DNA from: Lampropedia cohaerens
Lineage (GTDB): Bacteria > Pseudomonadota > Gammaproteobacteria > Burkholderiales > Burkholderiaceae_C
Direction: 5' to 3'
DNA length: 64,000 nt
Assembly: GCF_001005215.1 (NCBI RefSeq)
Contig: NZ_LBNQ01000037.1
Span: forward strand, 62,001 to 126,000
The notes beneath the pieces are model-generated. The model worked only from the letters and a program-made list of their open reading frames with translations, did not search any database and had not been told where the DNA came from. The position numbers and the translations under genes are program-made. Shown here one piece after another: positions 4,744-63,126 of the stretch. Position 1 is the stretch's first letter; every line of letters begins with the position of its first letter.

Positions 4744-5196
4744 TTAATGGGGTTTGGTTTCCTGCGTCAGATGCTCGGGTGGCTCGGGGCGGAACCAGAG
4801 CCAGGTTCCGACGATGGCCATGCACGATGACGCTGTGATCAGTGCCCACAGCGGCACACCCACCAGCACCATGATGAGGGCGCAGGCCAGCATGGTCAGC
4901 GCGGCCATGCGTTTGCCCTTGCGGCTGACATAGCCGCCAGCCTCCCAGTTGCGCAGGCTGGGGCCAAAGAGGCGGTGCTGGCGCAGCCATTCGTGCAGGC
5001 GCGGCGAGCTGCGCGCTGCCGCCCAGGCCGACATCAGAATGAAGACCGTGGTCGGCATGCCCGGAATGAAGGCACCGAGTATGCCGAGGAAAAGAAAGAG
5101 CAGTGCGAGCACATACAGTACGCCACGGCCCAGCCAGCTCGGGCAGCGCCGTGCGGAGGGCGCGTCTGGCTTGGAGGGCGGCGGAGGCGTGCTCAA
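4744..5196 (-). CDS. DUF454 (YbaN-like) inner-membrane protein
   Basis: The 150-residue protein has a proline-rich N-terminus, then a hydrophobic stretch LGILGAFIPGMPTTVFILMSA-type (about 36-60), a cytoplasmic segment with the DUF454 signature residues HEWLRQHRLFGPSLRNWE, and two further hydrophobic segments (about 97-130). This is the layout of YbaN-family inner-membrane proteins, whose function is not established. It stands alone between DUF937 (plus strand) and argF. Confidence 0.8.
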   Translation of the reverse strand: MSTPPPPSKPDAPSARRCPSWLGRGVLYVLALLFLFLGILGAFIPGMPTTVFILMSAWAAARSSPRLHEWLRQHRLFGPSLRNWEAGGYVSRKGKRMAALTMLACALIMVLVGVPLWALITASSCMAIVGTWLWFRPEPPEHLTQETKPH

Positions 5197-5256
5197 GGTG
5201 TCGGTTTCAGAATCAAAGTTGCAGCAGAAGACTATCAGTCATCCTGCAGGTGGCAA

Positions 5257-6189
5257 TCAATCCTCGCGGCGGCCTAGCATGAGGTATTCCATCAGCGCCT
5301 TTTGCACGTGCATGCGGTTCTCCGCCTCGTCCCAGACGACGGATTGCGGGCCGTCAATCACTTCGGCGTCGACCTCCTCGCCGCGGTGAGCTGGCAGGCA
5401 GTGCATGAACAGCGCATCGGGTTGCGCCACGGCCATCATGCGCTGATCGACCTTCCAGTCGGCAAAGGCGGCAAGGCGCTGCGCATTTTCCTCCTCATAT
5501 CCCATGCTGGTCCAAACATCGGTGGTGACGAGGTGCGCACCCCGGCATGCATCCAGTGGATTGGCAAACGTCTGGAAGTGGGCCGGATCGGCACTGCTGC
5601 CCAGTGCCAGCTTCTCATCCAGTTCATAGCCCCGCGGAGCGCTGACGTGCAGTTTGAAGTCCAGCAGCTGCGCCGCCTGCAGCCAGGTGTTGGCCATGTT
5701 GTTGCCATCGCCTACCCAGGCGACGGTCTTGCCCTTGATGGCACCTCGGTGCTCGATGAAGGTGAAGATGTCGGCCAGGATCTGGCAGGGATGGAACTCG
5801 TTGGTCAGGCCATTGATGACGGGCACGCGCGAGTGCTCGGCGAACTTTTCCAGCTTGCTTTGCTCGTAGGTGCGGATCATCACCAGATCGACCATGCGGC
5901 TGATGACGCGGGCACTGTCTTCGATGGGTTCCGAGCGGCCGAGCTGGCTGTCGCCAGTGGTCAGGTGCACCACTGAACCACCCAGCTGGTACATACCCGC
6001 CTCAAAGCTCACCCGCGTGCGGGTGCTGGCCTTCTCGAAGATCATCGCCAAGGTGTGGTCCGTCAGGGACTTGTGGTTCTCATAGCGCTTGAACTTCTGC
6101 TTCAGGCGTGCGGCGCGCTGCAGCAGATAGGCGTACTCGTCGGCGCTCAGGTCACTGAACTGCAGGTAATGCTTGATGGTGGCGGTCAT
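5257..6189 (-). CDS. argF: Ornithine carbamoyltransferase
   Basis: The enzyme condenses ornithine with carbamoyl phosphate to citrulline in arginine biosynthesis. The 310-residue sequence has the carbamoyl-phosphate motif STRTR (55-59), HPCQ (133-136), and the ornithine-binding HCLPAHRGEE with Cys264. These are complete and canonical. It lies downstream of argD on the same strand, separated by 106 bases that contain a strong hairpin. The argD-argF order is common in Burkholderiales, but argG does not follow here. Confidence 0.97.
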   Translation of the reverse strand: MTATIKHYLQFSDLSADEYAYLLQRAARLKQKFKRYENHKSLTDHTLAMIFEKASTRTRVSFEAGMYQLGGSVVHLTTGDSQLGRSEPIEDSARVISRMVDLVMIRTYEQSKLEKFAEHSRVPVINGLTNEFHPCQILADIFTFIEHRGAIKGKTVAWVGDGNNMANTWLQAAQLLDFKLHVSAPRGYELDEKLALGSSADPAHFQTFANPLDACRGAHLVTTDVWTSMGYEEENAQRLAAFADWKVDQRMMAVAQPDALFMHCLPAHRGEEVDAEVIDGPQSVVWDEAENRMHVQKALMEYLMLGRRED

Positions 6190-59064: not shown

Positions 59065-59628
59065 ATGCCAGCAATGACGCACCATGTGACGATCGATAGC
59101 CCGATAGGGCCATTGCTGCTGGCTGCAGCGCACGAGCAGCTGTGCCTGATCCAATTTTCCGGGGAGCGCAGGCCGCACTTGCCGCCGCTCCAGTCGCAGC
59201 GGCTCGAGCGTGCCACGGACCACCCGACGCTGGGCGAAGCGCAGCGGCAGCTGCAGGAATACTTCGCTGGTGAGCGGCAGCAGTTTGCACTGCCATTGCT
59301 GCTCGTAGGCACGCCGTTTCAGCAGCAGGTGTGGCAGGCGCTGGCAAGCATCCCTTACGGGGAGGCCATCAGTTATGCCGAGCTGGCGCAGCGGGTAGGG
59401 CGCCCGACAGCGGTGCGGGCCGTCGGTGCTGCCAACGGCCGCAACCCGCTGCCGATCGTGCTGCCGTGCCACCGTGTGATCGGTGCAGACGGCGCGCTGA
59501 CGGGGTTTTCTGGCGGGCTTGCGTGCAAGGCCTACCTGCTGTGGCTGGAAGGCAGCAGCGCGCCCTCAGGCGCAGCCCAAGGCAGTCGGCAGCCAGATCT
59601 GTTCGCCGCTGCCCCAGCCCGTCTGTGA
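59065..59628 (+). CDS. ogt: Methylated-DNA--protein-cysteine methyltransferase
   Basis: The 187-residue suicide enzyme removes O6-alkyl groups from guanine. The acceptor Cys is in [12 protein letters not shown] (PCHR). FQQQVWQAL and [23 protein letters not shown] precede it in normal order. The start at 59065 has AAGGAG upstream; the frame opens earlier at 58945. A Gly/Ser/Ala-rich C-terminal tail of about 20 residues is extra. It follows uvrB, so two direct or excision repair genes are adjacent. Confidence 0.93.
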
Positions 59629-59645
59629 CGGGCACTTGCCCGTCA
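59626..59645. terminator. Hairpin between convergent ogt and tpx
   Basis: TGACGGGCA and TGCCCGTCA pair perfectly over 9 bp around CT. The element lies in the 27-base gap between the convergent stops of ogt and tpx, where it could help end both transcripts. There is no U-run on either side. Confidence 0.5.
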
Positions 59646-59655
59646 CCGTGCATCC

Positions 59656-60156
59656 TCACTGCAGCGCGGCCTTGGCGGCGGCGTAGTCGGGTTCCTGGCT
59701 GATTTCGCTGACCAGCTCGACGTGCAGCACCTTGTCGTTCTCATCCAGCACGATGACGGCACGCGCTGCCAGTCCCGCCAGCGGGCCCGAGGCGATGGCC
59801 ACGCCATAGTCGTGCAGGAATTCACGCCCGCGCATGGTCGAAAGCGTTACCACCTGATTCAGCCCCTCGGCACCACAAAAGCGGGCCTGTGCAAACGGCA
59901 GGTCAGCGGAGATGCACAGCACGACCGTGTTGGCCAGTGCGGCAGCTTCCTGGTTGAAGGTGCGCACCGAGGTGGCGCACGTGGGCGTATCCACGCTCGG
60001 AAAGATGTTCAGGATCTTGCGCTTGCCGGCAAAGTCTCCGAGTGAGACATCGTTGAGGGATTTGTCGACCAGCTTGAAAGCGGGCGCCTGCTGACCCACC
60101 TGGGGCAGCGTGCCTTCGACGGTGACGGGATTGCCTTTGAGTGTGACTTGGGACAT
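59656..60156 (-). CDS. tpx: Thiol peroxidase Tpx (2-Cys peroxiredoxin)
   Basis: The 166-residue thioredoxin-dependent peroxidase reduces hydrogen and organic peroxides. The peroxidatic Cys60 is in [12 protein letters not shown]. The resolving Cys94 is in QARFCGAEG. The N-terminus [12 protein letters not shown] is canonical. It lies downstream of the encapsulin-peroxidase pair on the same strand, 92 bases away, giving a local group of peroxide-handling genes. Confidence 0.95.
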
Positions 60157-60248
60157 GGATAACCTCCTGTTGAAACAGTGAACGGAAAGAGGTCCATTGT
60201 TGCATCGCCCGGCTGCGCCTGCTCGCCAGCGCCGGAGTACCCGTGGCG

Positions 60249-61055
60249 TTACTGTGCCGCGCCGCGCAGCGGCACGGCCGCTTCGGCCGTCAACATGCGG
60301 AACGTCAGCGTCTCCTTGAGGTACAGGGCGACGTTCTCCGCGTCATGGTGGCTGTAGCCGATGCTCAGATCAATGCCCAGATGCAGTGCGTAGTCGCCGC
60401 CGCGCATGCTCAGCACGCATCCTCCCTCGATGGCCGATGACCAGAAGATTTCGCCCTTGATCAGTCGCTCGATGTGCTGGATGACAGGATAGCCCTGATC
60501 GCTGCCTTCACTCAGCGCGGTGTAGGCGTCAGCGCCGAGCACCACAGCGTAGGGCCCCTCCACCCCTTGCAGTCGCAGTTGCTTGAGGGCTTCGGCAACG
60601 ATGTCCGGGTAGTTGGCCGGTTCGCTGCCCAGCGACAGCGTGAGGTTGGAGGCGCCATCGCGGATACCGGTGATGCCGGCTGCGCGATAGCCGTCGAAGA
60701 TGGTGCGGTCTTCCGCGATGGCCAGGGTGGTCGCAGCATCTTTGGCGGGCTGCCAGTCCGAGTCCTGCGAGCCGCGCTCGACCGCATCGATCTGCGCGCG
60801 CGCGAGCGTGAATGGCACGCGCAGTTCGATCAGCGGCATGACCTCGCGCTGATGTGCCAGGACGCCTTCGACAGGCGCCTCAATGCGGCGCTGGTGGCCA
60901 GTGCCGACGCTGGAAAAGGCCGGACCTTCCGGGCCGCGCAGCTCGACGATGCGGCGCCCGGCGACCGAGCGCTTGAAGGTGCGGGCCACTTCCTCCTCGA
61001 TTTCGGCCCATGCAGAGGCCGAGATAGGGGCCAGTTCGCGATGCAGGTTATTCAT
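60249..61055 (-). CDS. Encapsulin shell protein (family 1, Linocin-M18 type)
   Basis: The 268-residue protein has the HK97-like encapsulin sequence: [39 protein letters not shown] at the N-terminus with the N-helix that holds cargo, [22 protein letters not shown] in the E-loop, and ILSM-like [21 protein letters not shown] near the C-terminus. Sixty such subunits typically self-assemble into a 20-25 nm icosahedral compartment. Its ATG overlaps the last 8 bases of the DyP peroxidase gene, so cargo and shell are translated together. No phage genes are near, so this is not a prophage capsid. Confidence 0.95.
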
Positions 61056-62094
61056 GGTGCGTTTGTCCTTTCAGTGAGCCAATGCAAAGGCTGCCGGTGT
61101 AGCCGTCGGCAGTGGGCGGCGCCGGCTCGGATTGCGGATCGCGCTCGGACAGTGCCTGCAGCAGATCCTGGGAGGGAACGAAGAACAGGCCGCCGGTGAC
61201 GGCCGTGCTGAAGTCCAGCAGGCGGTCGTAGTTGCCGGCGGGCTTGCCGACGAACATGTTTTCCAGCATCTGCTCAATCGGCCGGGGCGAGCGGGCATAG
61301 CCGATGAAGTAGGTGCCGAATTCGCCCATTCCGGGCCGGCCAAACGGCATGTTGCCGCGGACAATGTCGATTTCCTCGCCGTTCTCGTCCTCAATCACCG
61401 TCAGCGCATTGTGCGCCCAGCTTGGTTTGGTGGCGTCGTCGAGCTCGATGTCCGAGAGCTTGGTGCGGCCGATGATGCGCTCCTGCACTTCCACTGGAAG
61501 CGCATTCCAGCCCTGCATGTCGTGCAGGTATTTCTGCACGATGACGTAGCTGCCACCGGCGAAGTCGGGATCCTCGGCACCGATCACCGTGGCAGCCACA
61601 GCCTCCTGACCCTGCGGGTTCTCGGTGCCGTCGACGAATCCGATCATGGAGCGCATGTCGAAGTTGCGAAAGCCGTGCACTTCGTCCACGGCGGTAAAGC
61701 CCGGGCCAAGCGCTGCCACCAGATGCGTGGCCAGCTCGAAGCACAGGTCCATGCGGTCGGCGCGCAGGTGCAGCAGCACATCTCCGGGCGTGGCAACGGC
61801 GCGTCGCTCGGGTGGACCGTACTCAATGAACGGATGCAGTTCGCGTGGTCTTGGCGCGCCGAACAGGCGGTCCCAGGCCTCGGCGCCAAAGCCTGCAACG
61901 CAGCTGAGATGGTCTTGCGGCGCGCGATGACCGACGGCGCGCACCAGCGCGGCCAGGTCGCCGCACCAGGCACGTACTTGTGCGTGGGTGGCCGCATCGT
62001 CGGCAAGGGTCCCTACGATGAAAATGGCCGCCGCAGTGGCCGGTTCGGCAACGGGTTGTGGTGGAGAAGGTGGCGGCACAGAAGTAGTGGTCAT
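61048..62094 (-). CDS. Dye-decolorizing peroxidase (DyP) with encapsulin-targeting tail
   Basis: The 348-residue heme peroxidase belongs to the bacterial DyP group B. The catalytic Asp155 lies in the GFVDGTENP motif, the proximal heme His228 in SWAHNALTV, and Arg246 and Asn248 in RGNMPFG. These numbers run two ahead of DypB from Rhodococcus jostii (Asp153, His226, Arg244, Asn246). The last 16 residues contain GSLCIGSLKG (334-343), the consensus cargo-loading peptide, after a Pro/Glu-rich linker. It is therefore encapsulin cargo. The start at 62094 removes a non-similar extension of 63 residues. Confidence 0.95.
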   Translation of the reverse strand: MTTTSVPPPSPPQPVAEPATAAAIFIVGTLADDAATHAQVRAWCGDLAALVRAVGHRAPQDHLSCVAGFGAEAWDRLFGAPRPRELHPFIEYGPPERRAVATPGDVLLHLRADRMDLCFELATHLVAALGPGFTAVDEVHGFRNFDMRSMIGFVDGTENPQGQEAVAATVIGAEDPDFAGGSYVIVQKYLHDMQGWNALPVEVQERIIGRTKLSDIELDDATKPSWAHNALTVIEDENGEEIDIVRGNMPFGRPGMGEFGTYFIGYARSPRPIEQMLENMFVGKPAGNYDRLLDFSTAVTGGLFFVPSQDLLQALSERDPQSEPAPPTADGYTGSLCIGSLKGQTHHE

Positions 62095-62394
62095 AACACT
62101 GTGGCAGAAGGGGCCTGGCAAGGCGCGAACCGCAGGCGCTGACGCGTGCTGCGGTGGCGAGATGCTCATGCAGCGCGATAGGACAAGTGTAGACGCGCTG
62201 GCGGTGCCGGGCATTGCGCGCGGTGAGAAACGGACTGCGGCATTCAGGCTTGTGCGGCGTGATTGACAGGAGCGGTGCGCCATATCTGGCAGACTAGTGC
62301 GTATCTACACGGGCGACAATAGCGTCCGTATGCGCCGTTGCCACCATGTGTGCGGCGCGAATGCGACCTTGCCATTCAAGAGGAGCTCATCGAT
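62095..62394. other. 300-base divergent spacer between the DyP gene and the lipoprotein gene
   Basis: I see no convincing gene. It should hold the promoter of the DyP-encapsulin operon on the minus strand and that of the lipoprotein on the plus strand. I found no clear OxyR, SoxR or Fur site. Confidence 0.4.
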
Positions 62395-63126
62395 ATGCAT
62401 CGCACTCCATCATCGCGCCTGGCGATGGTTTTGACATCCTGCGCCGCCGCCGTCCTGCTGGCGGCGTGCCAGACGCCCCCGTCGGGGGACACCGCCGCGC
62501 AGGAAGCTCAGACGCTGGCGGCACAAGCCGCCGAGTTCGCCAAGACCTCCCCTGTCTCCGTGCTGGCGACAGACGAAGCGGGGCGTGGCGTGATCGCCTA
62601 CTTCGGCGCACCGGGCACGGAGCAGGAAGGCATGCGCTATGACGTGCAGCAGCCTGGCGGCTTCTATCGCGTCTACATGGGCCGCGATGCGGCCGGTCAC
62701 CACCGGGTGCAGGACTTCTACCAGGCCAGCGGCACGCCGCTGACCAGCGTGTTTCCCGTCGCGGCCGATGCCTCGCTCGTCGAGTGGGATACCCTGCCGC
62801 TGCAGGGGGAGGTGACGTTTTATCGCCCCAATGGCCAGGTGCGCTCGGTGACGCACTATCAGAACAGCCAGCTGCACGGGCGGGATGTGTACTACAACGA
62901 TGATGGCAGCGAGCGCTCCGTGTTCCACTGGGCCAACGACATGCTCGATGGTCCGTTCGTGGCGCGTGAGCCGGGCACGCTGCGGTCCGTTTCGGGGCAG
63001 GCCCGTGAAGACCAGATCATCAGCCTGCACGCCACCGGTGCCGATGGCGCGGAGTTGCCGCAGGACGAGGCGCTGGAGCTGCTGGAGGCGTCGCTGATGC
63101 TGTGGTATCAGGACATCTTCAACTGA
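62395..63126 (+). CDS. MORN-type (YwqK-like) lipoprotein
   Basis: The 243-residue protein has a lipobox LLAAC at residues 21-25 (lipidated Cys25) after a hydrophobic signal segment. The region 135-195 (GEVTFYRPNGQVRSVTHY then QLHGRDVYYNDDGSERSV) contains MORN-2/YwqK-like repeats. Function is unknown; such proteins are often envelope associated. The ATG at 62395 has AGGAG upstream. Its stop overlaps the end of the convergent phosphatase gene by 8 bases. Confidence 0.84.
   Translation: MHRTPSSRLAMVLTSCAAAVLLAACQTPPSGDTAAQEAQTLAAQAAEFAKTSPVSVLATDEAGRGVIAYFGAPGTEQEGMRYDVQQPGGFYRVYMGRDAAGHHRVQDFYQASGTPLTSVFPVAADASLVEWDTLPLQGEVTFYRPNGQVRSVTHYQNSQLHGRDVYYNDDGSERSVFHWANDMLDGPFVAREPGTLRSVSGQAREDQIISLHATGADGAELPQDEALELLEASLMLWYQDIFN

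Follow-up and report, generated by a model that had tools for sequence, protein, structure and literature searches.

The window analysed here, a stretch of 64,000 nucleotides from the draft genome of Lampropedia cohaerens (41 contigs), contains a gene for a DyP-type haem peroxidase located directly upstream of a gene for a family 1 encapsulin shell protein, and the two are predicted from their overlap to form one operon (Table 1), which is likely located on the chromosome. The 8-base overlap of the two genes that had been reported in a preliminary description of this DNA was recovered exactly. The length of the peroxidase follows from the ATG picked in that description; the frame remains open upstream of this codon to position 62283 and no clear Shine-Dalgarno sequence was found by eye in front of it. 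This ATG is likely the true start. A search of positions 59600-62500 yielded no consensus sigma-70 promoter, and the two terminator-like sites found in the same interval are no more than expected by chance.

Table 1. Features of the encapsulin locus and its immediate neighbours (positions in the window)
Feature	Position	Strand	Basis
DyP-type haem peroxidase, encapsulin cargo, 348 aa	61048..62094	-	Protein families, residues, ORF list
Family 1 encapsulin shell protein, 268 aa	60249..61055	-	Protein families; sole encapsulin match in the whole genome
Overlap of cargo and shell genes, ATGAATAA, 8 bases	61048..61055	-	Contains the shell ATG and the TAA that ends the cargo
Codons of the targeting peptide GSLCIGSLKG, DyP residues 334-343	61066..61095	-	GSLxIGSLK consensus (PMC10960027, in part)
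AAAGGA, codons of K342-G343; putative shell Shine-Dalgarno sequence, ending 10 nt upstream of the ATG	61066..61071	-	
tpx, thiol peroxidase, downstream neighbour without targeting peptide	59656..60156	-	
Divergent putative lipoprotein, one weak sub-threshold MORN_2 match	62395..63126	+	

Cargo, shell and targeting peptide

The cargo protein matches the NCBIfam family TIGR01413 (280.8 bits) and carries both Pfam DyP domains, PF04261 and PF20628. Its best sequence match is the Mycobacterium DyP 7bok (E 1.7e-125), the tag of which reads GSLGIGSLKG, and DypB of Rhodococcus jostii (3qnr) is a related enzyme that aligns to residues 11-344 (enzyme sequence only). The four active-site residues named in the preliminary description (D155, H228, R246 and N248) are all found at the positions given there and are invariant in all 89 distinct DyP rows (repeat rows of the same genome, L083 and L089-L092, are excluded from this and the other distinct-row counts). 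The same description had proposed that the tail of the protein is an encapsulin loading signal, and this reading holds: GSLCIGSLKG, which is located five residues from the C-terminal end, fits the consensus GSLxIGSLK derived from 1,193 encapsulated DyPs (PMC10960027, in part). The linker that precedes the tag, LLQALSERDPQSEPAPPTADGYT, had been characterized as rich in both proline and glutamate; the former is apt, the latter less so (4 Pro and 2 Glu in 23 residues).

The shell protein matches NCBIfam NF041155, the family 1 encapsulin shell (343.2 bits, with a cut-off of 100), and Pfam PF04454 (Linocin_M18, of the HK97 fold, 312 bits), and a comparison at the sequence level aligns it without gaps to the shell of Klebsiella (8u50) over positions 1-263. 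In the Klebsiella shell, the Leu, Ile and Leu side chains of the tag occupy a pocket, the tag Lys pairs with shell Asp38, the tag backbone bonds to Arg34 and Asp229, and the modelled tag peptide ends at the Lys (PMC10960027, in part). Among the 90 distinct shell rows, R34 is kept in all, the window included, and D229 in 88, again including the window, whereas position 38 is Asp in 88 rows, Pro in one and Glu in one, the latter being the window. The residues predicted to bind the targeting peptide are kept, with Asp38 to Glu as a conservative change.

The window also is the only one among the 89 distinct DyP rows with Cys at the variable tag position (Cys337). These two singular residues, the second at a site where Asp forms a salt bridge with the tag Lys in Klebsiella, might be taken as signs of a decayed or poorly loading system. 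We consider such decay very unlikely given that the variable tag position tolerates 10 residue types, that Glu preserves the charge, that the catalytic residues and the other contact residues checked are intact, and that the frames of cargo and shell are both open. Both Cys337 and Glu38 are conservative changes or lie at tolerant sites.

The claim that a family 1 encapsulin with DyP is an established system is amply confirmed by the related loci. In all 80 loci compared, which are the best 80 of 373 shell relatives from the scan of named genomes, the shell is paired with DyP. Lack of conservation of the tail in orthologues had been named beforehand as one of the findings that would refute the assignment; G[ST]LxIGSLKG is present in 80 of these 80 loci. 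The two genes overlap by 8 bases in 55 of the best 80 loci and by 4 bases in 17, lie one base apart in 2, and are separated by 443-1,034 bases in the remaining 6. The Burkholderia and Sphingomonas plasmid pairs are already labelled as such in public annotation, and 2,383 family 1 operons and 1,505 DyP encapsulin systems, 519 of the latter in Proteobacteria, have been catalogued (PMC8346489, in part). The compartment of the window was called correctly and is an ordinary one, one more case of a populated class. We found no paper on encapsulin in Lampropedia in the open-access literature.

The source genome yields a single encapsulin match. When the 3.16 Mb genome was searched for a second cargo with a DNA pattern that corresponds approximately to Lx[IV]GSL[KR], the only hit was DyP itself. 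A similar tag pattern occurs at 35 places in 20 other encapsulin-bearing genomes, 30 of which were made into loci and 29 of which were readable; among these 29, the C-terminal matches in frames longer than 80 residues are all known cargo genes. Three of the loci (L205, L212 and L214) contain frames of 17-65 residues that end soon after a tag-like motif. Secondary cargos, whose genes do not precede a shell gene, have been named for myxobacteria (PMC8229669, in part).

Genomic neighbourhood and lineages within the genus

The preliminary description had placed the organism in Burkholderiales, correctly; the same-genus genome G001 is Lampropedia puyangensis, and the family is Comamonadaceae. The emphasis on the adjacency of tpx, in contrast, finds no support among the relatives. 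The thiol peroxidase gene is present in 10 of the 10 genomes of the genus and the operon in none of the nine other tpx regions, one of which (G003) shows the arrangement uvrB-ogt-tpx without the operon and is the only one of the nine with uvrB and ogt beside tpx. That Tpx could be a functional partner of the compartment, with a common operon and common peroxide chemistry, is suggested by the position of its gene on the same strand 92 bases downstream of the shell gene. We nevertheless regard this partnership as highly improbable: the tag pattern has its only match of the genome in DyP, and tpx and the encapsulin gene are located on different contigs in G001, G003 and G006. Tpx was rejected both as a partner and as a second cargo on the grounds of the missing tag and the non-conserved adjacency, which looks incidental.

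The shell gene is found in 4 of the 10 genomes of the genus, and an encapsulin match in 11 of 399 genomes of the family, two of these matches being weak. On the other side of the operon, the putative lipoprotein has no NCBIfam match and no match above the Pfam cut-off. Its gene lies beside the operon in three of the four encapsulin-bearing genomes of the genus, namely the window, G001 and G006 (45-50% identity), and was found in three of the 96 loci searched (L002 and L089, both from G001, and L091 from G006), 12 of the 96 being shorter than 4 kb and thus too short to reveal it.

Tree building united the window with G001 and G006 (support 100/100 and 100/99) near Burkholderiaceae and Alcaligenaceae, whereas the pair of G003 clusters with other genera of its family, which implies two encapsulin lineages within the genus. 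On these counts and groupings, the genus may have acquired the pair by horizontal transfer. An origin from a mobile element was rejected: there is no Rfam match, the only repeats are short and imperfect, and GC and GC3 are like those of most neighbours. The plasmid shells of Sphingobium, Sphingomonas and Methylobacterium (H24-H29) all show the same 60.8% identity to the window at near-equal scores, and at two loci (L163 and L164) the operon is located between uvrA and PRC-barrel genes; the equal identity and the uvrA/PRC-barrel setting of the plasmid operons suggest recent spread.

The end of the tag and the start of the shell gene

In the window, the codons CTG AAA GGA (Leu-Lys-Gly) set the hexamer AAAGGA 10 bases ahead of the shell ATG, and by eye this is the sole Shine-Dalgarno-like run in the 30 bases before that codon. 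Complementarity to the anti-Shine-Dalgarno sequence is found at a workable distance from the predicted shell start and within the tag codons; the duplex of AAAGGA with ACCUCCUU (-4.6 kcal/mol) is tied for the weakest of the 76 loci in which the genes overlap or abut.

These 76 loci are part of a codon comparison of 83 loci (the window, L002-L082 and L084), from which L083 was omitted because it shares its genome with L002. Without correction for the kinship among the 76 loci, Gly343 is encoded by GGA in 76 of 76, a codon used for 3.3% of the 1,777 remaining glycines of these genes, and Lys342 by AAA in 75 of 76, compared with 18.4% of 441 Lys codons. At the seven loci where the genes are separated, Gly343 is encoded by GGC (five) or GGG (two) and never by GGA, but Lys342 remains AAA in six. 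The same holds within Burkholderia alone, where Gly343 is GGA in all 14 overlapping loci and in none of the six separated ones. Two of the latter, L056 and L069, the only two included in the trees, cluster there with overlapping loci. The shell start of the separated loci is preceded by a different short purine stretch (tgaggc). These loci look like a natural experiment in which the genes were parted and the Gly codon drifted to the common one. The choice of codons appears to exceed the needs of the peptide and to be lost when the genes are apart. The separated Burkholderia loci are L056, L058, L059, L063, L067 and L069; the gap of L063 contains, at 5160-5681 on the reverse strand, a reading frame of opposite orientation that matches GIY-YIG below the threshold.

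Two observations temper this comparison. GGA likewise encodes Gly339 in 51 of the 76 loci, although this residue lies too far upstream to belong to the core site, so that part of the codon shift may reflect A-richness or shared descent. When the 76 loci were recoded at random with synonymous codons, equal or better pairing was obtained in a median of 7% of the trials (17% in the worst case, 6.7% in the window, and 5% or less in 21 of 76 loci), and most loci taken singly are therefore without significance.

The set was then enlarged to 116 with 33 more DyP loci, taken from additional genera of the family, from the order and the phylum and from 22 plasmids, among them those of Klebsiella, Escherichia, Rhodococcus, Streptomyces, Nocardia and Tsukamurella. 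The genes overlap or lie at most 7 bases apart in 104 of the 116 and are separated in 12. In all but one of the 104 close loci, the shell start follows the last Leu of the tag at a distance of 13-17 nt (16 nt in 75, 17 nt in 20, 13 nt in four, 14 nt in three and 15 nt in one; 28 nt in the exception), while the cargo stop ranges from -8, inside the shell gene, to +7, before it. This spacing spans Burkholderiales, alphaproteobacteria, enterobacteria and actinobacteria. The residues that follow the Leu are diverse (Lys-Gly, Lys-Glu, Lys-Asp, Lys-Lys, Arg-Lys, Lys-Arg, Lys-Gln, Asn-Arg and Gln-Glu), and lineages in which the residue after Lys is Glu, Asp or Lys, or in which Arg-Lys takes the place of Lys, still use purine-rich codons that pair with the anti-Shine-Dalgarno sequence (AAAGAAGAGG, AAAGATGAGG, AAAAAAGAGG and AGGAAAGGGG). 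For the Lys-Glu, Lys-Asp and Lys-Lys tags, the recoding values are 0.42-1.0, since purines mostly result whatever codon is used, so that codon usage carries little information in these tags.

The ten bases after the Leu codon are 81% purines in the 104 close loci versus 69% in the 12 separated ones, and the median pairing energy right after this codon is -7.2 versus -3.0 kcal/mol (rank test, p about 3e-6, kinship ignored). Three separated loci (L058, L084 and L119) still pair at the tag, at -6.0 to -7.2. The Streptomyces locus L169 has no Shine-Dalgarno site, and in the Paracoccus locus L170 the site lies outside the tag, 12 bases further on. Tags of deviating form occur at several loci: in L084 and L090, both from G003 of the same genus, the tag of DyP is internal, with 22 further residues behind it; L122 (G261) has a similar extension; and L118 and L119, from two genomes of another genus of the family, have the degenerate tags IGALE and IGALK followed by an extension. 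Upstream of the shell start, the nearest 20 bases of L118 and L119 show no pairing with the anti-Shine-Dalgarno sequence.

A similar layout is seen in operons with another cargo enzyme, encapsulated ferritin (EncFtn, TIGR04535), which encode the cargo upstream of shells about 24-50% identical to that of the window. Of another 25 loci, all lacking DyP, 18 could be read, and in 12 of these 18 (by eye; two are from one genome) the codons of the tag, [IV]G.L[KR], spell the Shine-Dalgarno sequence of the shell gene. The loci of encapsulated-ferritin type with the site in the tag are L140, L145-L148, L151, L153-L157, L160 and L085, the cargo being typed for part of them, and they extend the arrangement to ferritin cargo in other proteobacteria. 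No site, or no clear one, lies within the tag of L141, L142, L143, L144, L150 and L159; in L142 it follows the stop. Ten cargos of the loci without DyP were typed, that of L142 among them, and all are encapsulated ferritin-like proteins.

The solved proteins of most similar sequence include components of DyP encapsulins from Mycobacterium, Klebsiella and Rhodococcus. In Klebsiella pneumoniae (shell 8u50/8u51, DyP 8u4z; PMC10960027, in part), DyP is encoded upstream and GSLxIGSLK, R34 and D229 are as in the window, and the Klebsiella plasmid operons L172 and L175 likewise have the -8 overlap and the 16-nt spacing. The Klebsiella tag differs in running Lys-Lys-Glu where the window has Lys-Gly, the shell in having Asp38 instead of Glu38, and the operon in its location on mobile DNA, together with rpoH and genes for formate dehydrogenase (PMC10960027, in part). 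The Mycobacterium shells 7boj, 7p1t and 9bkx are actinobacterial, unlike that of the window. Rhodococcus plasmid loci of strains other than the DypB source (L176 and L178) have GGLKG tags with AAAGGA. In Mycobacterium tuberculosis, the DyP stop overlaps the shell start (PMC11676171, in part), and the available part of that paper makes no mention of an embedded ribosome-binding site.

Proposed mechanism and its implications

Codon choice, spacing and the separated loci together argue for a dual use of the tag codons, which probably encode the end of the peptide and at the same time provide the ribosome-binding site of the shell gene. Very probably, the window contains a two-gene operon for a family 1 encapsulin that encloses DyP, with AAA GGA at the end of the tag serving as the shell Shine-Dalgarno sequence. 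By analogy with relatives, the shell would assemble from 60 subunits to a diameter of roughly 24 nm around DyP. Hexamers of DyP would be recruited during assembly, as in solved relatives, with the Leu-Ile-Leu side chains of the tag and Lys342 binding to the inner pocket of the shell, and the packaged enzyme would reduce peroxide while oxidising some donor. If the codons AAA GGA act as the Shine-Dalgarno sequence of the shell gene, as we propose here, a ribosome that completes the cargo tag is already at the shell start site, and the sequence of the tag and the translation of the shell cannot vary independently. The tag Lys appears to be retained for shell binding, and the next residue and its codon for the ribosome-binding site.

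Extended to family 1 operons in general, the proposal that the loading tag and the shell ribosome-binding site constitute one dual-coded element under joint selection seems to us the better bet, with considerable room for doubt. It competes with another account, to which we attach a smaller though appreciable probability, under which the Shine-Dalgarno sequence in the tag is a mere necessity of tight gene overlap, without a link to cargo loading. Embedded sites for downstream genes are common among overlapping bacterial genes, the upstream gene often holding the site, and for overlaps of -8 and -4 the geometry alone dictates that it falls in the tag. The account is also in line with published statements that the tight packing or operon arrangement of encapsulin genes is a sign of strong translational coupling (PMC8229669 and PMC7925596, both in part). 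Against it, the tag-to-ATG distance is 13-17 nt also in 10 of the 11 loci without overlap whose genes are 1-7 bases apart. This and the persistence of the purine run while the amino acids after Lys vary point to an arrangement that is kept, although neither demonstrates a benefit to loading. The embedded site as a mechanism is ordinary; what seems unusual in the dual-coded tag is the coincidence with the cargo-loading signal and the apparent shaping of that signal.

We found no description of a ribosome-binding site inside an encapsulin targeting peptide in the open-access literature, seen in part, which is weak evidence of absence. A dual-coded tag would provide a concrete basis in the DNA for the coupling between cargo and shell that papers infer from operon packing. 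Because the tag codons carry the apparent ribosome-binding site of the shell gene, deletion of the tag within the operon would also affect shell translation, which would confound the removal of the last 15 residues that the preliminary description suggested as a check on loading, and codon optimisation of native operons might alter shell expression as well as loading. Expression of a native two-gene operon in E. coli gave lower loading and little haem compared with staggered expression (PMC12140327, in part), a difference that makes the role of translation in the cargo/shell ratio a live question.

If the tag is indeed dual-coded, its Lys-Gly end (or Lys-Glu, Lys-Asp or Lys-Lys in other lineages) would be shaped by translation initiation in addition to shell binding, which would account for the strong conservation of the Gly, a residue outside the modelled tag peptide. 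There would also be a reason at the sequence level for the placement of a C-terminal tag on a cargo encoded upstream of the shell. Synthesis of the shell would be tied to the completion of tagged cargo, such that loss of the tag would reduce the shell too and empty compartments would be rare.
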